Origin: Leptotrichia sp. oral taxon 218
GTDB lineage: Bacteria; Fusobacteriota; Fusobacteriia; Fusobacteriales; Leptotrichiaceae
Assembly: GCF_018128225.1 (NCBI RefSeq)
Contig: NZ_CP072377.1
Coordinates: 1,922,001 to 1,986,000, forward strand
Length of the DNA stretch: 64,000 nucleotides
Reading direction: 5' to 3'
Numbering within the stretch: position 1 is the stretch's first letter; every line of letters starts with the position of its first letter. Position numbers and translations under genes: made by a program. This document shows, piece after piece, positions 56,570 through 64,000 of this stretch. Under the pieces are notes generated by a model. It was not told the origin of the DNA. It made no database searches and was given only the letters and a program-made list of their open reading frames with translations.

Positions 56570-56971
56570 TTAAGATAATTTTTTTATTATTTTATAAAAT
56601 CCTGAACCAATAAAAAGTATTACACCTGCAAAAATGATAAATATATCAAAAAGACCAATATTTTGACTCCTATTAATACAATTTTCTCTTTCTTTTGCAT
56701 CAACAATACTTTCACAGTTTATTCTCCCTGAACTGCTTGAATGAGAACCACGACTTCTCCAAAAAGATGACGAATTTTCTTGCTCATCATCACCAGATTT
56801 TTTAGATTTTCCATCTCCTTCTCCATCTGAATGTCCTCTCGAATGCTCTCCGCTACTATGTTCTCCACCATAGTGACCACCATAATGATGACTTCCACCA
56901 CTTCCATGAAAATGACCATGTCCACCACCATGAGAATGTCCGCCACCACCTCTTCTTACTAATTTTTCCAT
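56570..56971 (-). CDS. His/Gly/Ser-rich protein with C-terminal membrane helix
   Basis: 133 residues from the ATG at 56971 (AGAGAGG before it); an upstream in-frame ATG at 57001 has no ribosome site. Residues 5-60 are a low-complexity tract of GGHSHGG, HGHFHG, SHHYGGHYGG and EHSSGEHSRGHSDGEG, followed by a Ser-rich part, a short Cys pair (NCESIVDAKERENC) and one membrane helix (FDIFIIFAGVILFIGSGFY) with a basic tail. The His density suggests metal binding, which fits the metal-transport cluster 147 bases downstream. No family recognised; a surface-exposed low-complexity protein is the alternative. Confidence 0.7.
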   Translation of the reverse strand: MEKLVRRGGGGHSHGGGHGHFHGSGGSHHYGGHYGGEHSSGEHSRGHSDGEGDGKSKKSGDDEQENSSSFWRSRGSHSSSSGRINCESIVDAKERENCINRSQNIGLFDIFIIFAGVILFIGSGFYKIIKKLS

Positions 56972-57040
56972 TTTGACCTCTCTTTCTTCACTCTTTTTCA
57001 TTTTTTCAATTTCTGTGATCTCAAAAATTCAATTTTTCAT

Positions 57041-57305
57041 TCATTTTTTCAATTCTTTCACATCATATTTCCCAATATTTTCATACTCGTAAGACTGATT
57101 AATTCCATTCATCAACACATCTCTATCCTCTGTATCACTTGTCAAACTTTCCTTCAAAAGTTCCCACTTGAATATTTTTCAATATCCCATTATCAAACAA
57201 TTCTCTTGCCCTTCTTTTACTCAAAAATTCTTCTTCGTCTTGAGAAACTAGCCTTTTTAAAATTTTGTCACTTTTGTTTTCCCAGTTGTATTTGCTATTT
57301 GTCAT
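57041..57305 (-). pseudogene. Small gene of unknown function, frameshifted
   Basis: From an ATG at 57305 with GAGGGGG upstream, the frame runs 56 residues (TNSKYNWENKSDKILKRLVS ... ELFDNGILKN) to a stop at 57135. Removing one A from the A5 tract near 57175 continues it in a second frame (IFKWELLKESLTSDTEDRDV ... QSYEYENIGKYDVKELKK) to 57041, giving about 87 charged, helical residues. No family recognised. It lies 31 bases after the methyltransferase stop codon, so it would be the last gene of the restriction-modification cassette. Confidence 0.5.
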
Positions 57306-57336: not shown

Positions 57337-59358
57337 TTATTTTTTATAACTAATTGTCTTACTAAAATTTGTAACTAGAACTTCCCTTGTCGTAGTATTC
57401 TTATTTTTAACTTGATAACTGGAATTATAATAATTAAAATCCATTTCATTTATAAAAAAATTATTTTTTAAACACCAATCTTTTAAAACCTCATTCTCTT
57501 TCCCTTTATGTTCCAAAACATTTGAAAGAGCAAATCTAATTTTTCTTTCATTGCATCTTTCTAAAAATTTTAATAAATCCTTTTCATCATTTTCAGTCCA
57601 GGAATTATTTTCATTATAACTCGCCTGACCCAATAAATATGGCGGATCAAGATAAAAAAAAGCATTTTCGCTGTCAATTCTTTCTAAATTTATATCACGA
57701 AAATCCATATTTTGAAATTTTGTTTCAACTAACTGTAAATTATAAATAAAATTTTTTAATTTTTTTCGTAAATTAGAATTAAAATCTCTCTTTCCGACAG
57801 GTAAATTAAATTCATTTTTTTTATTAAACCTAATTTGATTGTTAAAAGAATAAAAAATTAATAGAAGAAACAATATTTCATTTTTTTTATTATTATAATC
57901 TTCTCGTAATTTTAAAAATTTTTCTTTGTTATATTTTCCCAAACCATTCTGAGAATTACAGCCATAGTATTCATACCCATTTTCAAAAGAATTACTTAAA
58001 CCATAATATTCTATTTTTTTCTCTATTTCTTTTTCCAACTTTTCATAATTTTGTTTTTTCAAAAAATTAAGTAATTCTATCAATTCTTTATTTTTATCAA
58101 TCCCTATTACTCTTCCAGCATTAAAGTTCGCTCCTACATTAAAGCCACCACAAAAAATATCATAAAAAATTTCAATATCTTTGGGTATTTTTTCAAAAAT
58201 TTTTTTTAATAATTTAAATTTTCCACCTGTATAATTAAGTGGTGATTGGCTTAATTTTTTTTCTCTATTATTTATTTCAAAAAGTTTATTTTCTTTTTTT
58301 ATTTTATTTTGTTTCTGTTTTTCTTTTCTATCATCTTTTTTAAATTTTTTTACTTCACAAAAAAATATTCTTTCTGTATGGTTTTCAATATTTGTTTTTC
58401 CCACTGTAAACGGATTAAAATCTTTTTCAAATACAGTAACTTCCCCTTTGGATTCCAAAATTTCTAAAATTTCACTATCACTAATCCTTGCATTTGAACG
58501 AGAATTAGCCTTTTGCTGTGTATTATTATACGAAAAAAGAATATATTTTGCCGAAATATCTTCAATCAATTCTTCCAAAGTTTTTTTTGCACTTGATAAA
58601 CAATATTTACTTTTTATGTGGGTTCTATCCATTTTTCTAGCAACTCCAAATACATCTGGTTTTTCATTTGTCGCAATATTTTCTAAAAAATGATAAGCAT
58701 CGCTGTACTGCCTTGAATTATAAGGTGGATCAATATACACAATATCTGCACTAAATTCTTTTACTAATTCATTTGCATCCATACAAAAAATTTTATTGTT
58801 TTTATTATTTTCATTTTCAATTTGAGGAAATTTCAAAAGTAATTCTTTTTCTAAATCTCCATTTTTTCTGTAAGCATCATAATGTCCCACTGTATTAGCA
58901 ATTCTATCAACAGCATATATTAAAGATGTTATTAATATTGCTTTCTCTCGTTTATTTATTTCTTTTTTCTCAAATAAATCATCAATACCATCTCTTATAA
59001 ATCCAACTTTTTTTAAATTTTTCTCACTTAAATATGTATTTTTAAAATTTTCAGAATAATAATTATTATCTTCAATAATTTTTTCGTTATATTTTTTCAT
59101 AATCTCAATCAATTTTTTTTCATCATATTCCAAATTTGAAAAAAAACATTCATAAGAAAAATAATTACATCTTAGCAAATCATTCAGTACAACATCATAT
59201 TTTTTATTAAAATAATCTGCTACAACTCCTGTTCCTGCAAATAAATCCAAAAATACTTTACTATTTTCTGTATTTTTTTCTACTATTTTTTCAATAAATT
59301 CCAACAATTTATATTTACTTCCCAAATATCTTCTATTATATATTTTAAATCTTTCCAA
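57337..59358 (-). CDS. Fused double N6-adenine DNA methyltransferase (M.FokI-like)
   Basis: 673 residues with two complete adenine methyltransferase domains of the D12 (alpha) class. Domain 1: YLGSKYKLL (motif X) near 11, FLDLFAGTG (motif I) at 36-44, DPPY (motif IV) at 210-213. A Lys-rich linker lies at about 336-370. Domain 2: LNYTGGKFKLL near 374, DIFCGG at 400-405, DPPY at 571-574. Such fusions, as in M.FokI and M.StsI, methylate one adenine on each strand of an asymmetric site, protecting the host from a type IIS enzyme. It overlaps the endonuclease gene by 14 bases and is downstream of it. Target unknown. Confidence 0.93.
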   Translation of the reverse strand: MERFKIYNRRYLGSKYKLLEFIEKIVEKNTENSKVFLDLFAGTGVVADYFNKKYDVVLNDLLRCNYFSYECFFSNLEYDEKKLIEIMKKYNEKIIEDNNYYSENFKNTYLSEKNLKKVGFIRDGIDDLFEKKEINKREKAILITSLIYAVDRIANTVGHYDAYRKNGDLEKELLLKFPQIENENNKNNKIFCMDANELVKEFSADIVYIDPPYNSRQYSDAYHFLENIATNEKPDVFGVARKMDRTHIKSKYCLSSAKKTLEELIEDISAKYILFSYNNTQQKANSRSNARISDSEILEILESKGEVTVFEKDFNPFTVGKTNIENHTERIFFCEVKKFKKDDRKEKQKQNKIKKENKLFEINNREKKLSQSPLNYTGGKFKLLKKIFEKIPKDIEIFYDIFCGGFNVGANFNAGRVIGIDKNKELIELLNFLKKQNYEKLEKEIEKKIEYYGLSNSFENGYEYYGCNSQNGLGKYNKEKFLKLREDYNNKKNEILFLLLIFYSFNNQIRFNKKNEFNLPVGKRDFNSNLRKKLKNFIYNLQLVETKFQNMDFRDINLERIDSENAFFYLDPPYLLGQASYNENNSWTENDEKDLLKFLERCNERKIRFALSNVLEHKGKENEVLKDWCLKNNFFINEMDFNYYNSSYQVKNKNTTTREVLVTNFSKTISYKK

Positions 59359-61414
59359 TATTTTCTCCTTTTACAGAATTATTCCATGTATCTTCACACC
59401 AGTTATTTCCTATAAATTCTATTTTGCTGTAATTCTCAAAAACTCTATTTAGAAAATATTTATAATTTATATTATTTTCAAGTAAATAAATTATCTTGTC
59501 TATCGTTAATGAATAAATCTTTATTCCGTTTGTATATTTCTCTCTATTTTGTGTTGATTGAAGTTGAATTTGTGAAGTTACTCTAAAAATATTAATTACA
59601 TTTGCATCTAATTCGTTTGCAACAAAAAAAGTATATGTTTTTTTATTTTCTTCCATATTTTTTATTGTCAAATTCGTTGTATGGCGTATTACAGGCTCAA
59701 GTTCTCCTCTTTTCTGAGTATTTCTATCCATCAATGTTGCTTCTAGCATAACATCAAAATCTGAATATTCTGCAATTATATCGCCATCGCCACCTGGAGC
59801 ATGTGAAAGCGGAAATCCATCTCCATCAAGCGACAATTTCAGACTTTTCTTCAAATTAAATTCTTTATTAGAAATTCTATGCCAGGCGATTGCCAACATA
59901 TATTCAAAAATTGTAGGAATTTTTGCATTATCTGTAACTTCTTTTGAAATTTTTTCATCATTTTCCCTATTTTTAAACAAATTTAATATGCTACAGACTT
60001 TATCATTTGAAAATCTTTCTTCCAATTTTTTTTCAAAATCTTTATCTATTTTGTCCGAAAAATATTCAAAAATTGATAATTCTTTTGGAATATTGTTCTC
60101 TTTTCTTAGTTTTTCTATAAAACTTTCAATTCTCTCTTCTGATAAATCAAAAATCTCTGAAAATGAAATATTTTTATGAAAATTATCTTTGACTACTTCA
60201 TTATTTAACTTTTTCATACCTATAATTTCTGAAAAAATATTTTTACTCAACCATTTATACGATAAATTTACCAGTCCATTCTCAAAACTAATTATTCCTG
60301 AAAGATTAAAAGTTCTAATTGTCATATCATTATATTCAAAAATCAAATCATAGTTTTTAGAATCTCGAAATAATTCATAAAATAATTTATTGAACTCTTC
60401 AATATTTTTAGATTCAAATATCGTTTCTTTATTCTCTTCCAAAAATTCTTTTACTGTTTTACTAAATTTAAACGGAATTCTATTGAATCCAAAAGCCTTT
60501 TTTATACTCTCTTTTTTACTTATTTTTTCTAATTTTTTATATGTTTCCGAATCTCTATTTTCAAAAAAATCTAAAGATATTTCGTAAAATTCAAAATAAT
60601 CCTCTATTTTATCTTTACTTTTTCTATTTAAAAAATATTTTTCAAATTTCTCTTTTGAAATTCTATACTTTTCTTCAAATTTTATTTCTAAAGTTTCTTC
60701 TTGTATATATCTTGAAACATATTCACCAAAACTCATATTTTTATTTTTTACGAATTTATATTTATCCAGTATTTCTCTATATTCTTCCTCTTTCTTTCCT
60801 GCTCTGATTAAAGACAAAATCGTACAAAATTCCTTTTGTGGAATATCATCAAATTTACTCAGTAAATAAATTCCCATTCTAAATGGATAAATGTAATTTT
60901 CTCCTTCAGATTCATAAACTCTCAATTTCAATAATTGTCTTAAAAAAATAATGTTGTCTGCTGATAAATTAAATAATTTTTCAATATCATCCTGTTTTGT
61001 ATCTCCGTCTAACAACGCTTCTCCAACTGCTGTTATTTTTCTTTTTTCATCTACAAGTCCTATTTTTACAAGTGCATTCGTATAAGTTCTCCCTCTTTTT
61101 TTCTGTTCTAAAATAAAATATTTTACTAAACTCTTATAATCTGTGACTTCCTTTTTATTTTTATATTTTTCAAAAATACTTTCTTTAAATTTATCAGATA
61201 TAAAAGAATAATAATCTCCATAAAATGTATCATTTATCAATCCACTTTTAGCAACATATTGATAAAAAGTCATTTGTGAACTATTCTTCGTAGACCATTC
61301 TTCCAATTGTTCCGTAATTCCTTGCAACATTATTTTGTAATCATCTAACAAATTTTTTCTTCTAAAACTTGTATCTCCTAAATTCATCACGGAATCTTTA
61401 TTCTGTAGCTTCAT
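59345..61414 (-). CDS. AlwI-family type IIS restriction endonuclease
   Basis: About 689 residues from the ATG at 61414, which has GGGAGAG at good spacing; the frame opens at 61435 inside the previous gene. A long, mostly helical N-terminal part (about 500 residues), probably target recognition, is followed by a PD-(D/E)xK-type catalytic region near residues 535-580: HAPGGDGDIIAEY, VMLEATLMDRNTQ, GELEPVIRHT. The order D...ExT...QxxxxExEPVxRH fits AlwI/MlyI/PleI/BstNBI enzymes, which cut at a fixed distance from an asymmetric site. It is longer than the roughly 550-600 residues I expect for the family. The paired fused methyltransferase supports an asymmetric target. Confidence 0.82.
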   Translation of the reverse strand: MKLQNKDSVMNLGDTSFRRKNLLDDYKIMLQGITEQLEEWSTKNSSQMTFYQYVAKSGLINDTFYGDYYSFISDKFKESIFEKYKNKKEVTDYKSLVKYFILEQKKRGRTYTNALVKIGLVDEKRKITAVGEALLDGDTKQDDIEKLFNLSADNIIFLRQLLKLRVYESEGENYIYPFRMGIYLLSKFDDIPQKEFCTILSLIRAGKKEEEYREILDKYKFVKNKNMSFGEYVSRYIQEETLEIKFEEKYRISKEKFEKYFLNRKSKDKIEDYFEFYEISLDFFENRDSETYKKLEKISKKESIKKAFGFNRIPFKFSKTVKEFLEENKETIFESKNIEEFNKLFYELFRDSKNYDLIFEYNDMTIRTFNLSGIISFENGLVNLSYKWLSKNIFSEIIGMKKLNNEVVKDNFHKNISFSEIFDLSEERIESFIEKLRKENNIPKELSIFEYFSDKIDKDFEKKLEERFSNDKVCSILNLFKNRENDEKISKEVTDNAKIPTIFEYMLAIAWHRISNKEFNLKKSLKLSLDGDGFPLSHAPGGDGDIIAEYSDFDVMLEATLMDRNTQKRGELEPVIRHTTNLTIKNMEENKKTYTFFVANELDANVINIFRVTSQIQLQSTQNREKYTNGIKIYSLTIDKIIYLLENNINYKYFLNRVFENYSKIEFIGNNWCEDTWNNSVKGENIGKI

Positions 61415-64000
61415 TTTTTTCACTCTCCCATTCAAAATAAGCTTCTACAATATTATTATTTGAAATATTATCATTATTCTTAATTTTAGAAAAAATATAT
61501 TCTCTCACTAATTTTATTAATTTTTTATTATTTTTTTCTAAAAGATTTTTTATTCTTATTTTTGAAAATTTCTCTAACTCATTTTCTGTAAATTCAGAAT
61601 AATCAAAATTTTCTTGATTTAATATGTATTTCCATAATATCTCTGACTCATATTGTTCCAACGATTTAAAAAATTCCTTATTTTTATATTTTTTTAATTT
61701 TTCTATAAAAGAAATCGGTAATTTATTATTTAAACCCGATACTAATAAAAAATCTAAAATCTTTTCTTTTTCAGATGTATAACTTATTAAATTATTTATA
61801 TCTGTATCTTTTTTTTGAAAAATTCTATCTAATTCTTTTATTATTTTATCTTCTGTTTCTGGAATAACATCTATAAATTTTTGATTTAATAAAAAACTAT
61901 AAACTTCTATATTTAGTGTATCTTTTATTTCTTTTAGTATTTCATTTTTTAACTCTTCAAAATATATTTCATCTATTATTCTTAAAAAATAACATTTTAT
62001 TTTTAAATTATTTTTATTAATAAAGTTTTTTATTTTATCATTTTTTGAAATTTTTGGCATTTCTTTTTTATTAAAATAGTATGTAATGTGATCCAATAAA
62101 TTTTCATCTATTCTTTTCCTATCAATTAAAAAAATCTTTTCCAATATCTTATCAAAAAACTCTTTGTTTAAATTTTTAAAATTTTTATAAATTATAACTA
62201 TAAAGTTATCTGCTACATCCAAAGCATAATTATTTTCAAAAAAGACATTGCTATTTTTATCATTTAATATTATGTCAACTAATTTTTCAAACTGAGTTTC
62301 TATTAAATTTAATTTCGAGATTATTAGTAAAATACTTTCTAAAGTATCTATTTTTTCCATAAATTCGTTATCATTCTCTATTATCCAATCAAGTATATTT
62401 TTGAGTAATACAATTAATTTATCGAAAATTTCTTTCTCACATTTTAAATCTTTTATCTCATATTCATTAAATAATTTTTTCAAATCACTGTAACTTAATT
62501 CTAACATCATAAAAAAATCAAAATATTCAAATTCTTCTATAAGGTTTCTGTTTTTAAACATCTGATTTTTGACCTCAATATTCTTATTAGTATACGACAT
62601 GAGTAAAATTTCAATGTACTTTTTCATAAATTCTGAATAATCAGAAAATGAATTTCCAAATATTCCATTTAAAGAATAAAAATAAAATAAATCTCTTGAC
62701 AAAATTATAGCTTTGTATGACGGAGGTGTTCCCATTACATATGAAGTACTTTTCCCTTTTCTTACTTTATCAAATAATTTGTTCATTTCCTTATTTAAAG
62801 CTTCTAAAGTTGAATACTTAAATATTTCATTAAAAAGTTCTGTTTCATATTTAAAATATTCAAAATACTTATCTTCCAAACTTTCTTCTATACTTTCAAA
62901 AGTTTTATTTAAATTTTCTTCTGCATGTGTTATTTCCATAAATTCAATAATACTCAATATAAAGTTATCCCAAACTAATTTTTCATTTTTACTATTAACA
63001 TTTTCTTTTTCTTCTATCATACTTTTTATTGTTTCTTTTGCTTTATTTATTTTTTTAAAAAATAAATATCCATATACAATTACATATTTGTTAATATTGT
63101 TATTTTCTTTGTATTCTTCTACTAAATTCTGAAAATTTTTATAATCATAATCACAAATTATTTTTAAACATTTTTCTTCTACTTCTATTTTTTCTTCTAA
63201 AATATTTTTTTGTTCTTTTCTCTTAGGAGTAATTCCTTTTTCAGAAAAAGGAATTAATATTTCTTTTTCATTTCTATTTATCCTCTGAAGAATTTTTTTT
63301 ATCCTTGATTTAAAAAGTATCTCTTCATATTTTTCTATATCTTTAAACTCTAATCTTGTATATAAAATTCTTTTCCAGTCTTCATCTATACGAATTTCAG
63401 AATATTTATTAAGTTTATTCCAATTGTGCTTTGTTAAATAATTTAAATTTATATATATTTCAAAAATTTTTTCTTGCTTCACTTTCTCTTTTTCATTATA
63501 GATATTCGATAAAAATTTAGTTAAAGTTTTCTCGTAATTATTATTAAATCTTTCTTTTTTACTTTCATATAGTACTTCGTCGTTATTATTATTCAAAAGT
63601 TTTAATGAAATTTTATTTATCTGTTCACCATTTTCTTCCTCTTTATTATCCTCGTTTGTAAATTCAACAAGAAATGCCTTTCTAGTTTTCTCTTTCAAAA
63701 TTTCTTTTATCCAATTCATAATTTGTTGCACATTTGTATCACTGTATGAATAACCTATAAATAGTACTGTATTTGTTGTAAATAAACCTTTTACAAGAGT
63801 TGAAATTAATTGAAAATTTTTTTCATAATTATCATAATCACTTTTCTTCAAAACTATATTTTTATTTTCAAAATCACCATGCATTTTTATAAGCATTCTG
63901 TTAGAATTAGTGTACGGTAAATCTTCATCTTTACTTACAATTTGTAAATTTTTTATTTCATCTTCAATTAATGTATCATAATTTGTTGTAATTATATAAG
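61398..64000 (-). CDS. SIR2-like anti-phage protein (DSR-type), N-terminus beyond window
   Basis: The reading frame does not begin at the ATG at 63896; it stays open to the right edge, giving at least 866 residues. The edge sequence reads IITTNYDTLIEDE, then LIKMHGDFENKNIVLKKSDY and VLFIGYSYSDTNVQQIM: the TTNYD, catalytic-type HGD and GYSxxD motifs of SIR2_2/SIR2-like NAD-binding domains. About 700 residues of Lys/Glu/Asn-rich helical sequence follow without other motifs. This is the layout of defence-associated sirtuins, which deplete NAD on phage infection. The stop lies 16 bases inside the endonuclease gene, so expression is coupled. Confidence 0.85.
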   Translation of the reverse strand, partial: YIITTNYDTLIEDEIKNLQIVSKDEDLPYTNSNRMLIKMHGDFENKNIVLKKSDYDNYEKNFQLISTLVKGLFTTNTVLFIGYSYSDTNVQQIMNWIKEILKEKTRKAFLVEFTNEDNKEEENGEQINKISLKLLNNNNDEVLYESKKERFNNNYEKTLTKFLSNIYNEKEKVKQEKIFEIYINLNYLTKHNWNKLNKYSEIRIDEDWKRILYTRLEFKDIEKYEEILFKSRIKKILQRINRNEKEILIPFSEKGITPKRKEQKNILEEKIEVEEKCLKIICDYDYKNFQNLVEEYKENNNINKYVIVYGYLFFKKINKAKETIKSMIEEKENVNSKNEKLVWDNFILSIIEFMEITHAEENLNKTFESIEESLEDKYFEYFKYETELFNEIFKYSTLEALNKEMNKLFDKVRKGKSTSYVMGTPPSYKAIILSRDLFYFYSLNGIFGNSFSDYSEFMKKYIEILLMSYTNKNIEVKNQMFKNRNLIEEFEYFDFFMMLELSYSDLKKLFNEYEIKDLKCEKEIFDKLIVLLKNILDWIIENDNEFMEKIDTLESILLIISKLNLIETQFEKLVDIILNDKNSNVFFENNYALDVADNFIVIIYKNFKNLNKEFFDKILEKIFLIDRKRIDENLLDHITYYFNKKEMPKISKNDKIKNFINKNNLKIKCYFLRIIDEIYFEELKNEILKEIKDTLNIEVYSFLLNQKFIDVIPETEDKIIKELDRIFQKKDTDINNLISYTSEKEKILDFLLVSGLNNKLPISFIEKLKKYKNKEFFKSLEQYESEILWKYILNQENFDYSEFTENELEKFSKIRIKNLLEKNNKKLIKLVREYIFSKIKNNDNISNNNIVEAYFEWESEKNEATE

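Follow-up and report, generated by a model that had tools for sequence, protein, structure and literature searches.

A DSR2-like SIR2 gene overlapping an AlwI-type restriction-modification pair in Leptotrichia: a candidate two-layer phage defence cassette

At one end of a 64,000-nucleotide window from Leptotrichia sp. oral taxon 218 (the window is the whole stretch analysed, G000:C1:1922001-1986000, where G000 is the source genome of 2,172,496 bases), three overlapping genes on the reverse strand encode a probable SIR2-type NADase, an AlwI-family restriction endonuclease, and a fused adenine methyltransferase. On balance, we somewhat favour reading this cassette as a horizontally acquired, two-layer phage defence installed behind a housekeeping ABC-F gene, with the SIR2 protein sensing infection on its own. 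The first layer would be a conventional AlwI-type restriction-modification (R-M) pair, with the fused methyltransferase placing marks on both strands of an asymmetric site and the endonuclease cleaving DNA that lacks them. The second would be a DSR2-like SIR2 protein that detects a phage product through its C-terminal 700 residues, upon which the N-terminal SIR2 domain would destroy NAD and halt the infected cell. We expect both layers to be encoded on one transcript and to travel together, and sensing of infection by the SIR2 protein is most likely independent of the R-M enzymes.

The SIR2 gene crosses the window edge. It occupies 61398..64295 on the reverse strand, of which 61398..64000 falls inside the window and 295 bases beyond it (L009:7399-10296; L009 is a 20-kb stretch of the same genome that reaches past the edge and was used for neighbour scans). 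Extending the contig past 64000, as the earlier note on this DNA had suggested, recovered the missing N-terminus: the gene begins with GTG and encodes 965 residues with no internal stop, and domain matches place the SIR2 domain at about residues 6-212, from 63660 to beyond the window edge. The endonuclease gene (R; 59345..61414, reverse strand) encodes 689 residues from an ATG at 61414 and overlaps the SIR2 gene, whose stop ends at 61398, by 17 nt (61398..61414). The methyltransferase gene (M; 57337..59358, reverse strand) encodes 673 residues from a TTG at 59358 and overlaps the endonuclease gene, whose stop ends at 59345, by 14 nt (59345..59358). The description of three leftward, overlapping genes is confirmed, the SIR2 stop said to lie 16 bases inside its neighbour corresponding to the 17-nt overlap and the 14 nt being as claimed. 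In a second Leptotrichia genome, G075, the SIR2/R overlap has the identical sequence, and the two frames overlap in G073 too.

The same note had called the genes translationally coupled and placed the effector first. The overlaps are real, but coupling would be a deduction from them, and R and M are each preceded by a possible ribosome-binding sequence, as judged by eye. SIR2 is indeed the first of the three; the ABC-F ATPase gene, however, is co-directional and its stop precedes the SIR2 start by only 13 nt, so the cassette may not head its transcript and the SIR2 gene is perhaps not the first in it. Scans for promoters (84 promoter-like sites against a shuffle mean of 66.7, sd 8.6) and terminators (2 terminator-like sites against 1.0 in shuffles) gave signals too weak to rest on, and no Rfam families or tRNA were found in the 20-kb stretch. 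The other flank, outside the cassette, holds a 56-residue remnant of a Fic gene (57135..57305, reverse strand), whose full frame of 207-232 residues is present in nine cassette-free Leptotrichia genomes; the copy of G073 matches the Fic family in Pfam. Beyond it, a small His/Gly-rich gene (56570..57001, reverse strand) is, by neighbour comparison, the native right-hand flank.

A separate disruption lies beyond the window, at L009:15313-18805, where a host gene is present in two fragments that are 91% and 93% identical to the halves of a 457-residue frame in G080. Between the fragments are an IS200-type Y1 transposase gene and an OrfB/TnpB-like gene, and a DUF2207 C-terminal domain falls in the downstream part of the host gene.

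The 965-residue protein matches the SIR2_2 family (E 5e-24, Pfam scan), and its best solved-structure match is DSR2 of Bacillus subtilis (PDB 8wkt, 8k98) over residues 6-212, with E-values of 1.5e-35 for the single sequence and 2.6e-54 for a six-sequence profile. Asn105 and His139 are invariant in 6/6 aligned sequences, three of them Leptotrichia alleles, and align with Asn133 and His171 of DSR2 (numbering counted from the alignment). Asn133 is a catalytic residue of DSR2, and the PDB holds a DSR2 H171A entry. A SIR2 NADase domain with the catalytic Asn and His is thus present, and the gene product is a probable NADase. The likeness to DSR2, which is of about 1000 residues, continues in a full-length profile alignment: by hhalign against three DSR2-like proteins, it runs co-linearly across 833 columns (E 2.8e-45). 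Once the SIR2 domain is taken out, the same comparison falls to Prob 3.6 and E 0.012, and because the C-terminal part alone has no significant match to DSR2, we call the protein DSR2-like rather than DSR2. Judged by these alignments, homology to DSR2 is proven for the N-terminal domain only, and for the same reason the sensor region may be quite different from that of DSR2. Unlike DSR2, to which it is ~22% identical, the protein is encoded in an R-M cassette. The PADLOC Dsr2 model stayed below reporting even at E 1 for the 965-residue protein and matched the N-terminus of three relatives. Relatives from the genomes G007, G011, and G022 share 49-59% identity with the 965-residue protein over its first 240 residues and 33-34% over the remainder. 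Within the gene, dN/dS is 0.58 in the last quarter versus 0.11 in the first, as a sensor might behave, on few changes.

The best PADLOC models were those of ThsA (1e-36), and identity with Thoeris was considered and rejected. The protein shares a SIR2 domain with ThsA, but the match is limited to that domain (residues 4-232), the length is 965 residues versus ~480, and the neighbours, ABC-F and R-M genes, do not fit: no TIR gene (ThsB) was found among the 14 of 17 ORFs of L009 scanned with Pfam, a set that comprised all but the three at the ends of the stretch. No SLOG-type Pfam match was found in the protein at E up to 1.

The R-M pair shares two features with AlwI-type systems, an RE_AlwI-family, type IIS-like endonuclease (Pfam, E 8.4e-41; PADLOC REase_II, 1.4e-110) and a D12-D12 fusion methyltransferase. 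Part of the endonuclease aligns with the small subunit of R.BspD6I (E 9e-5). The methyltransferase contains two MethyltransfD12 stretches (Pfam, 5e-59), with DPPY at residues 210 and 571 and a second half that resembles Dam-type enzymes; each D12 domain would serve one strand. We compared the pair with nine AlwI-type loci outside Leptotrichia, from G081, G067, and seven plasmids (opened out of 55 plasmid records matched by an R search). M precedes R in eight of the nine, the ninth (H95) listing no M, and the R-then-M order of Leptotrichia is therefore inverted relative to AlwI-type loci elsewhere. The Leptotrichia methyltransferase is also shorter, with 673 residues versus 722 and 736 in G081 and G067, which have a longer N-terminus (in G067 with a weak HTH_17 match, E 0.0045), and three plasmids (H104, H106, and H134) list two methyltransferases as separate genes. 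R is followed by a gene for an AAA_15 ATPase in G081 and a DUF6414 protein in G067. The Leptotrichia cassette differs further in having a SIR2 gene in front, since none of the nine loci has an adjacent one (0/9). More distant SIR2 genes occur: in a Companilactobacillus plasmid, a 455-residue one lies ~3 kb upstream and on the opposite strand; in G081, R is 3.4 kb away from a 242-residue Sir2-family gene; and in the E. faecium plasmid H20, 6.3 kb separates a ThsA-type pair from the AlwI-type R-M genes.

Within Leptotrichia, the SIR2-R-M order occurs in 4/13 genomes and at one site: in G000, G073, G075, and, as remnants only, G080. All 13 genomes carry the ABC-F gene. In eight of the nine cassette-free genomes, the Fic gene follows ABC-F directly or past one small gene; the ninth, G077, carries two distinct genes for DNA methyltransferases, one D12 and one N6/N4 (L081:9649-11457), between ABC-F and Fic, and on that account the interval looks like an R-M hotspot. 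The cassette starts directly after the ABC-F stop, and the sequence that follows M in G073 and G075 is 97% identical to that of the cassette-free G070. In G075, a small junction deletion has fused R and M into one open frame of 1337 residues (L031:3849-7862), and R is out of frame over its first 35 codons.

Sequence distances differ gene by gene along the locus. Between G000 and G075, DNA identity is 79.9% for ABC-F, 98.7% for SIR2, 93.4% for R, and 87.3% for M, with synonymous distances of 1.11, 0.027, 0.22, and 0.49, respectively; between G073 and G075, the identities are 93.1%, 91.7%, 94.6%, and 97.0%, and between G000 and G073 the synonymous distances are 1.58, 0.26, 0.25, and 0.49. G075 therefore combines a SIR2 allele near that of G000 with an M near that of G073. 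This gene-by-gene pattern indicates that the cassette moved between species and that SIR2 alleles and M were exchanged in separate events. Such mixed ancestry argues against strict co-adaptation, although swapping SIR2 alleles with 98.7% identity tests independence only weakly. The dN/dS values between G000 and G073 (NG86) are 0.219 for SIR2, 0.136 for R, and 0.155 for M, pointing to purifying selection on all three genes. The GC content of the cassette genes (20.0-24.4%) is below that of ABC-F (34.8%) and the window (31.4%), which lends weak support to a foreign origin, the flank beyond ABC-F also reaching only 25.1%.

Relatives of the SIR2 protein were sought first in 98 Fusobacteriota genomes, where the 965-residue query (P0001; E up to 1e-20) matched 11: the four Leptotrichia genomes with the cassette gene, four with ThsA-sized proteins (including Leptotrichia G078), and three with full-length relatives. 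Each full-length relative lies beside a different R-M system. In G007, the SIR2 gene follows a complete MmeI-like enzyme after a 281-nt gap. In G011, it precedes a type III mod gene by 3 nt, with DUF1016 and res genes also present; res lies in two frames of 201 and 777 residues, and this type III system may therefore be broken. In G022, it follows a type ISP enzyme after 60 nt. A 1202-residue gene of G022 (L035:3019-6627) overlaps the stop of the SIR2 gene by 4 nt; it had no Pfam match at E up to 0.01 and no PADLOC match at E up to 1e-5, and its product is a possible further partner of the SIR2 protein.

Searches of wider genome samples (389 and 398 genomes) with a SIR2 profile at E up to 1e-40 added two more long relatives. 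G376 was the only match outside Fusobacteriota among the 389; its 1262-residue SIR2 protein, counted as a relative by the SIR2 domain only (profile positions 48-333) and having a different C-terminus, is followed by an N6/N4 methyltransferase gene and an ICEA gene, which we take to resemble NlaIII. G399, one of the 398, has the gene of a true DSR2 between HsdS and HsdR in a type I operon; the protein matches the PDB DSR2 with E=0 over residues 6-980. With Leptotrichia counted once, long SIR2 genes at E up to 1e-40 in the genomes searched adjoin R-M genes on the same strand in 6/6 contexts. Three further loci have no R-M neighbour: the Priestia megaterium plasmid H1, with a long SIR2 protein 61% identical to that of G399; the P. 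aryabhattai plasmid H91, with a SIR2 protein of 1248 residues; and a prophage locus, Mu-like by eye, in which a DSR2-like gene of 1002 residues (L038:7959-10967) sits among structural-looking genes. The two plasmids belong to 12 records opened (the other ten being ThsA-type) out of lists of 33 and 67 plasmid matches that overlap and contain many near-duplicates.

The SIR2-R-M order itself was not found outside Leptotrichia by SIR2 searches of samples of 98, 389, 398, 3, and 10 genomes, nor by R searches of the 98 genomes, plasmids, and phages, and a short-peptide-pattern search for R in genome contigs, which reaches close relatives only, returned it only in Leptotrichia. The genome samples overlap and represent a small fraction of the available genomes and not all phyla. 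Spore-forming Clostridia, sampled via Spo0A (210 handles), gave a match only in G148. Phage collections contained no match to P0001 or to the DSR2 of G399, yielding, for the G007 protein as a query, two matches to the SIR2 domain and, for R, one partial match; further phage and viral collections gave none. The earlier note had looked to conservation of the order in unrelated genomes, and to the co-occurrence of homologues elsewhere, for evidence of a unit. The order recurs at a single site in four Leptotrichia genomes, one of them holding a remnant, but it was not found elsewhere in the searches made; co-occurrence does extend to homologous SIR2 genes beside R-M genes, but these are of other types, and no SIR2 gene adjoins the AlwI-type R-M loci viewed elsewhere. 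The stronger proposal of obligate co-expression, or of a dedicated three-gene system, is not supported, given the restriction of the order to Leptotrichia in these searches, the 0/9 count, the long SIR2 genes without R-M neighbours, and the recombination of SIR2 apart from M.

As a control for the association, we used 15 loci with ThsA-sized SIR2 proteins, from G078, G090, G092, and G096 (Fusobacteriota), G148, and ten plasmids. R-M genes adjoin 4/15 of these (G096, H35, H41, and H56), compared with 6/9 of the long SIR2 genes (Fisher one-sided p=0.067, a rough value, as the control mixes plasmids with genomes and includes the similar pair H35/H41). H13, with an R-M gene ~2 kb from its Thoeris pair, and H20, at 6.3 kb, were counted as not adjacent. 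Because R-M genes often adjoin the control SIR2 genes as well, the excess of R-M neighbours for long SIR2 genes is suggestive only.

Three other accounts of the cassette can be weighed against this evidence. The SIR2 protein could be a guard of the R-M system, kept silent by the R-M proteins, or as long as restriction succeeds, and firing when a phage blocks or overwhelms restriction, in the manner of PrrC-EcoPrrI. Co-directional linkage to R-M systems of six types in six contexts could signal such a functional dependence, the DSR2 of G399 sits within a type I operon, and both the precedent and the hypothesis are already in print (PMC12707154, PMC3506569). PrrC is likewise a toxic partner encoded inside an R-M operon, a position that the cassette's SIR2 gene shares by gene overlap and strand, although PrrC is an anticodon nuclease rather than a SIR2 protein and EcoPrrI is of type I. 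The partner R-M enzymes are, however, structurally unrelated, which makes a single conserved inhibitory contact implausible; three of the long SIR2 loci viewed have no R-M neighbour, SIR2 alleles were swapped separately from M, and the DSR2 of published work is triggered by a phage tail tube protein. We therefore consider a guard unlikely and prefer an independent layer, mainly because the R-M enzymes found beside the SIR2 relatives are unrelated in structure and some relatives have no R-M partner; a guard responding to some general symptom of failed restriction is possible. A wider form of the idea, in which the long DSR2-like SIR2 proteins form a clade of general-purpose add-ons to R-M systems, whatever the type (I, IIS, IIL, II NlaIII-like, III, and ISP), that sense a cue shared by R-M systems that are failing or anti-restricted and then deplete NAD, seems to us still harder to credit.

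Adjacency by chance, with the ABC-F/Fic interval gathering R-M genes and the SIR2 gene being a functionally unrelated passenger, would suit the two methyltransferase genes found there in G077, the absence of adjacent SIR2 genes from AlwI-type loci elsewhere, and an excess over the Thoeris control that is not significant. It sits less easily with the 17-nt overlap of SIR2 and R, with the five other contexts in which long relatives all adjoin R-M genes on the same strand, and with the low dN/dS of all three genes, and we regard it as improbable. That the R-M pair or the SIR2 gene is no longer functional in G000 seems very unlikely: the remnants in G080 and the frame-shifted R start and R-M fusion frame of G075 do attest to decay in related genomes, but in G000 the three frames are open, the motifs are present, and dN/dS relative to G073 is 0.14-0.22.

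A link between SIR2 and R-M is not new in itself, having been published in 2012. According to Makarova et al. (2012, PMC3506569), Sir2 is among the domains found within many type I and type III R-M systems; with PrrC as the model, these authors propose a coupling of immunity and suicide. The cassette agrees with that account in having a SIR2 gene in or beside an R-M operon and in the idea of a backup; the passage concerned names types I and III, whereas the system here is AlwI-type and its relatives accompany MmeI-like, ISP, and NlaIII-like enzymes. PrrC and PARIS are presented as R-M guardian systems in a 2025 review (PMC12707154), and another paper places the TgvAB defence pair inside a type I R-M operon (PMC11411939). 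The claim that no named system has this gene order holds to the extent that we found no name for it in the open-access literature, mainly titles and abstract openings (subscription papers and preprints being outside this scope); SIR2 genes in R-M operons and the backup idea, however, had been published (PMC3506569). The same literature, at the same depth, yielded no report of DSR2-like proteins beside AlwI-type, MmeI-like, or ISP systems.

The 2012 hypothesis of immunity-suicide coupling posed the question of whether suicide effectors in R-M operons are guards or fellow travellers (PMC3506569). The Leptotrichia cassette is small, occurs in natural allele combinations that join a nearly identical SIR2 to diverged R-M genes, and has relatives on several R-M types, and these properties make the two models separable. 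The pairing of SIR2 with R-M may be a recurring design.
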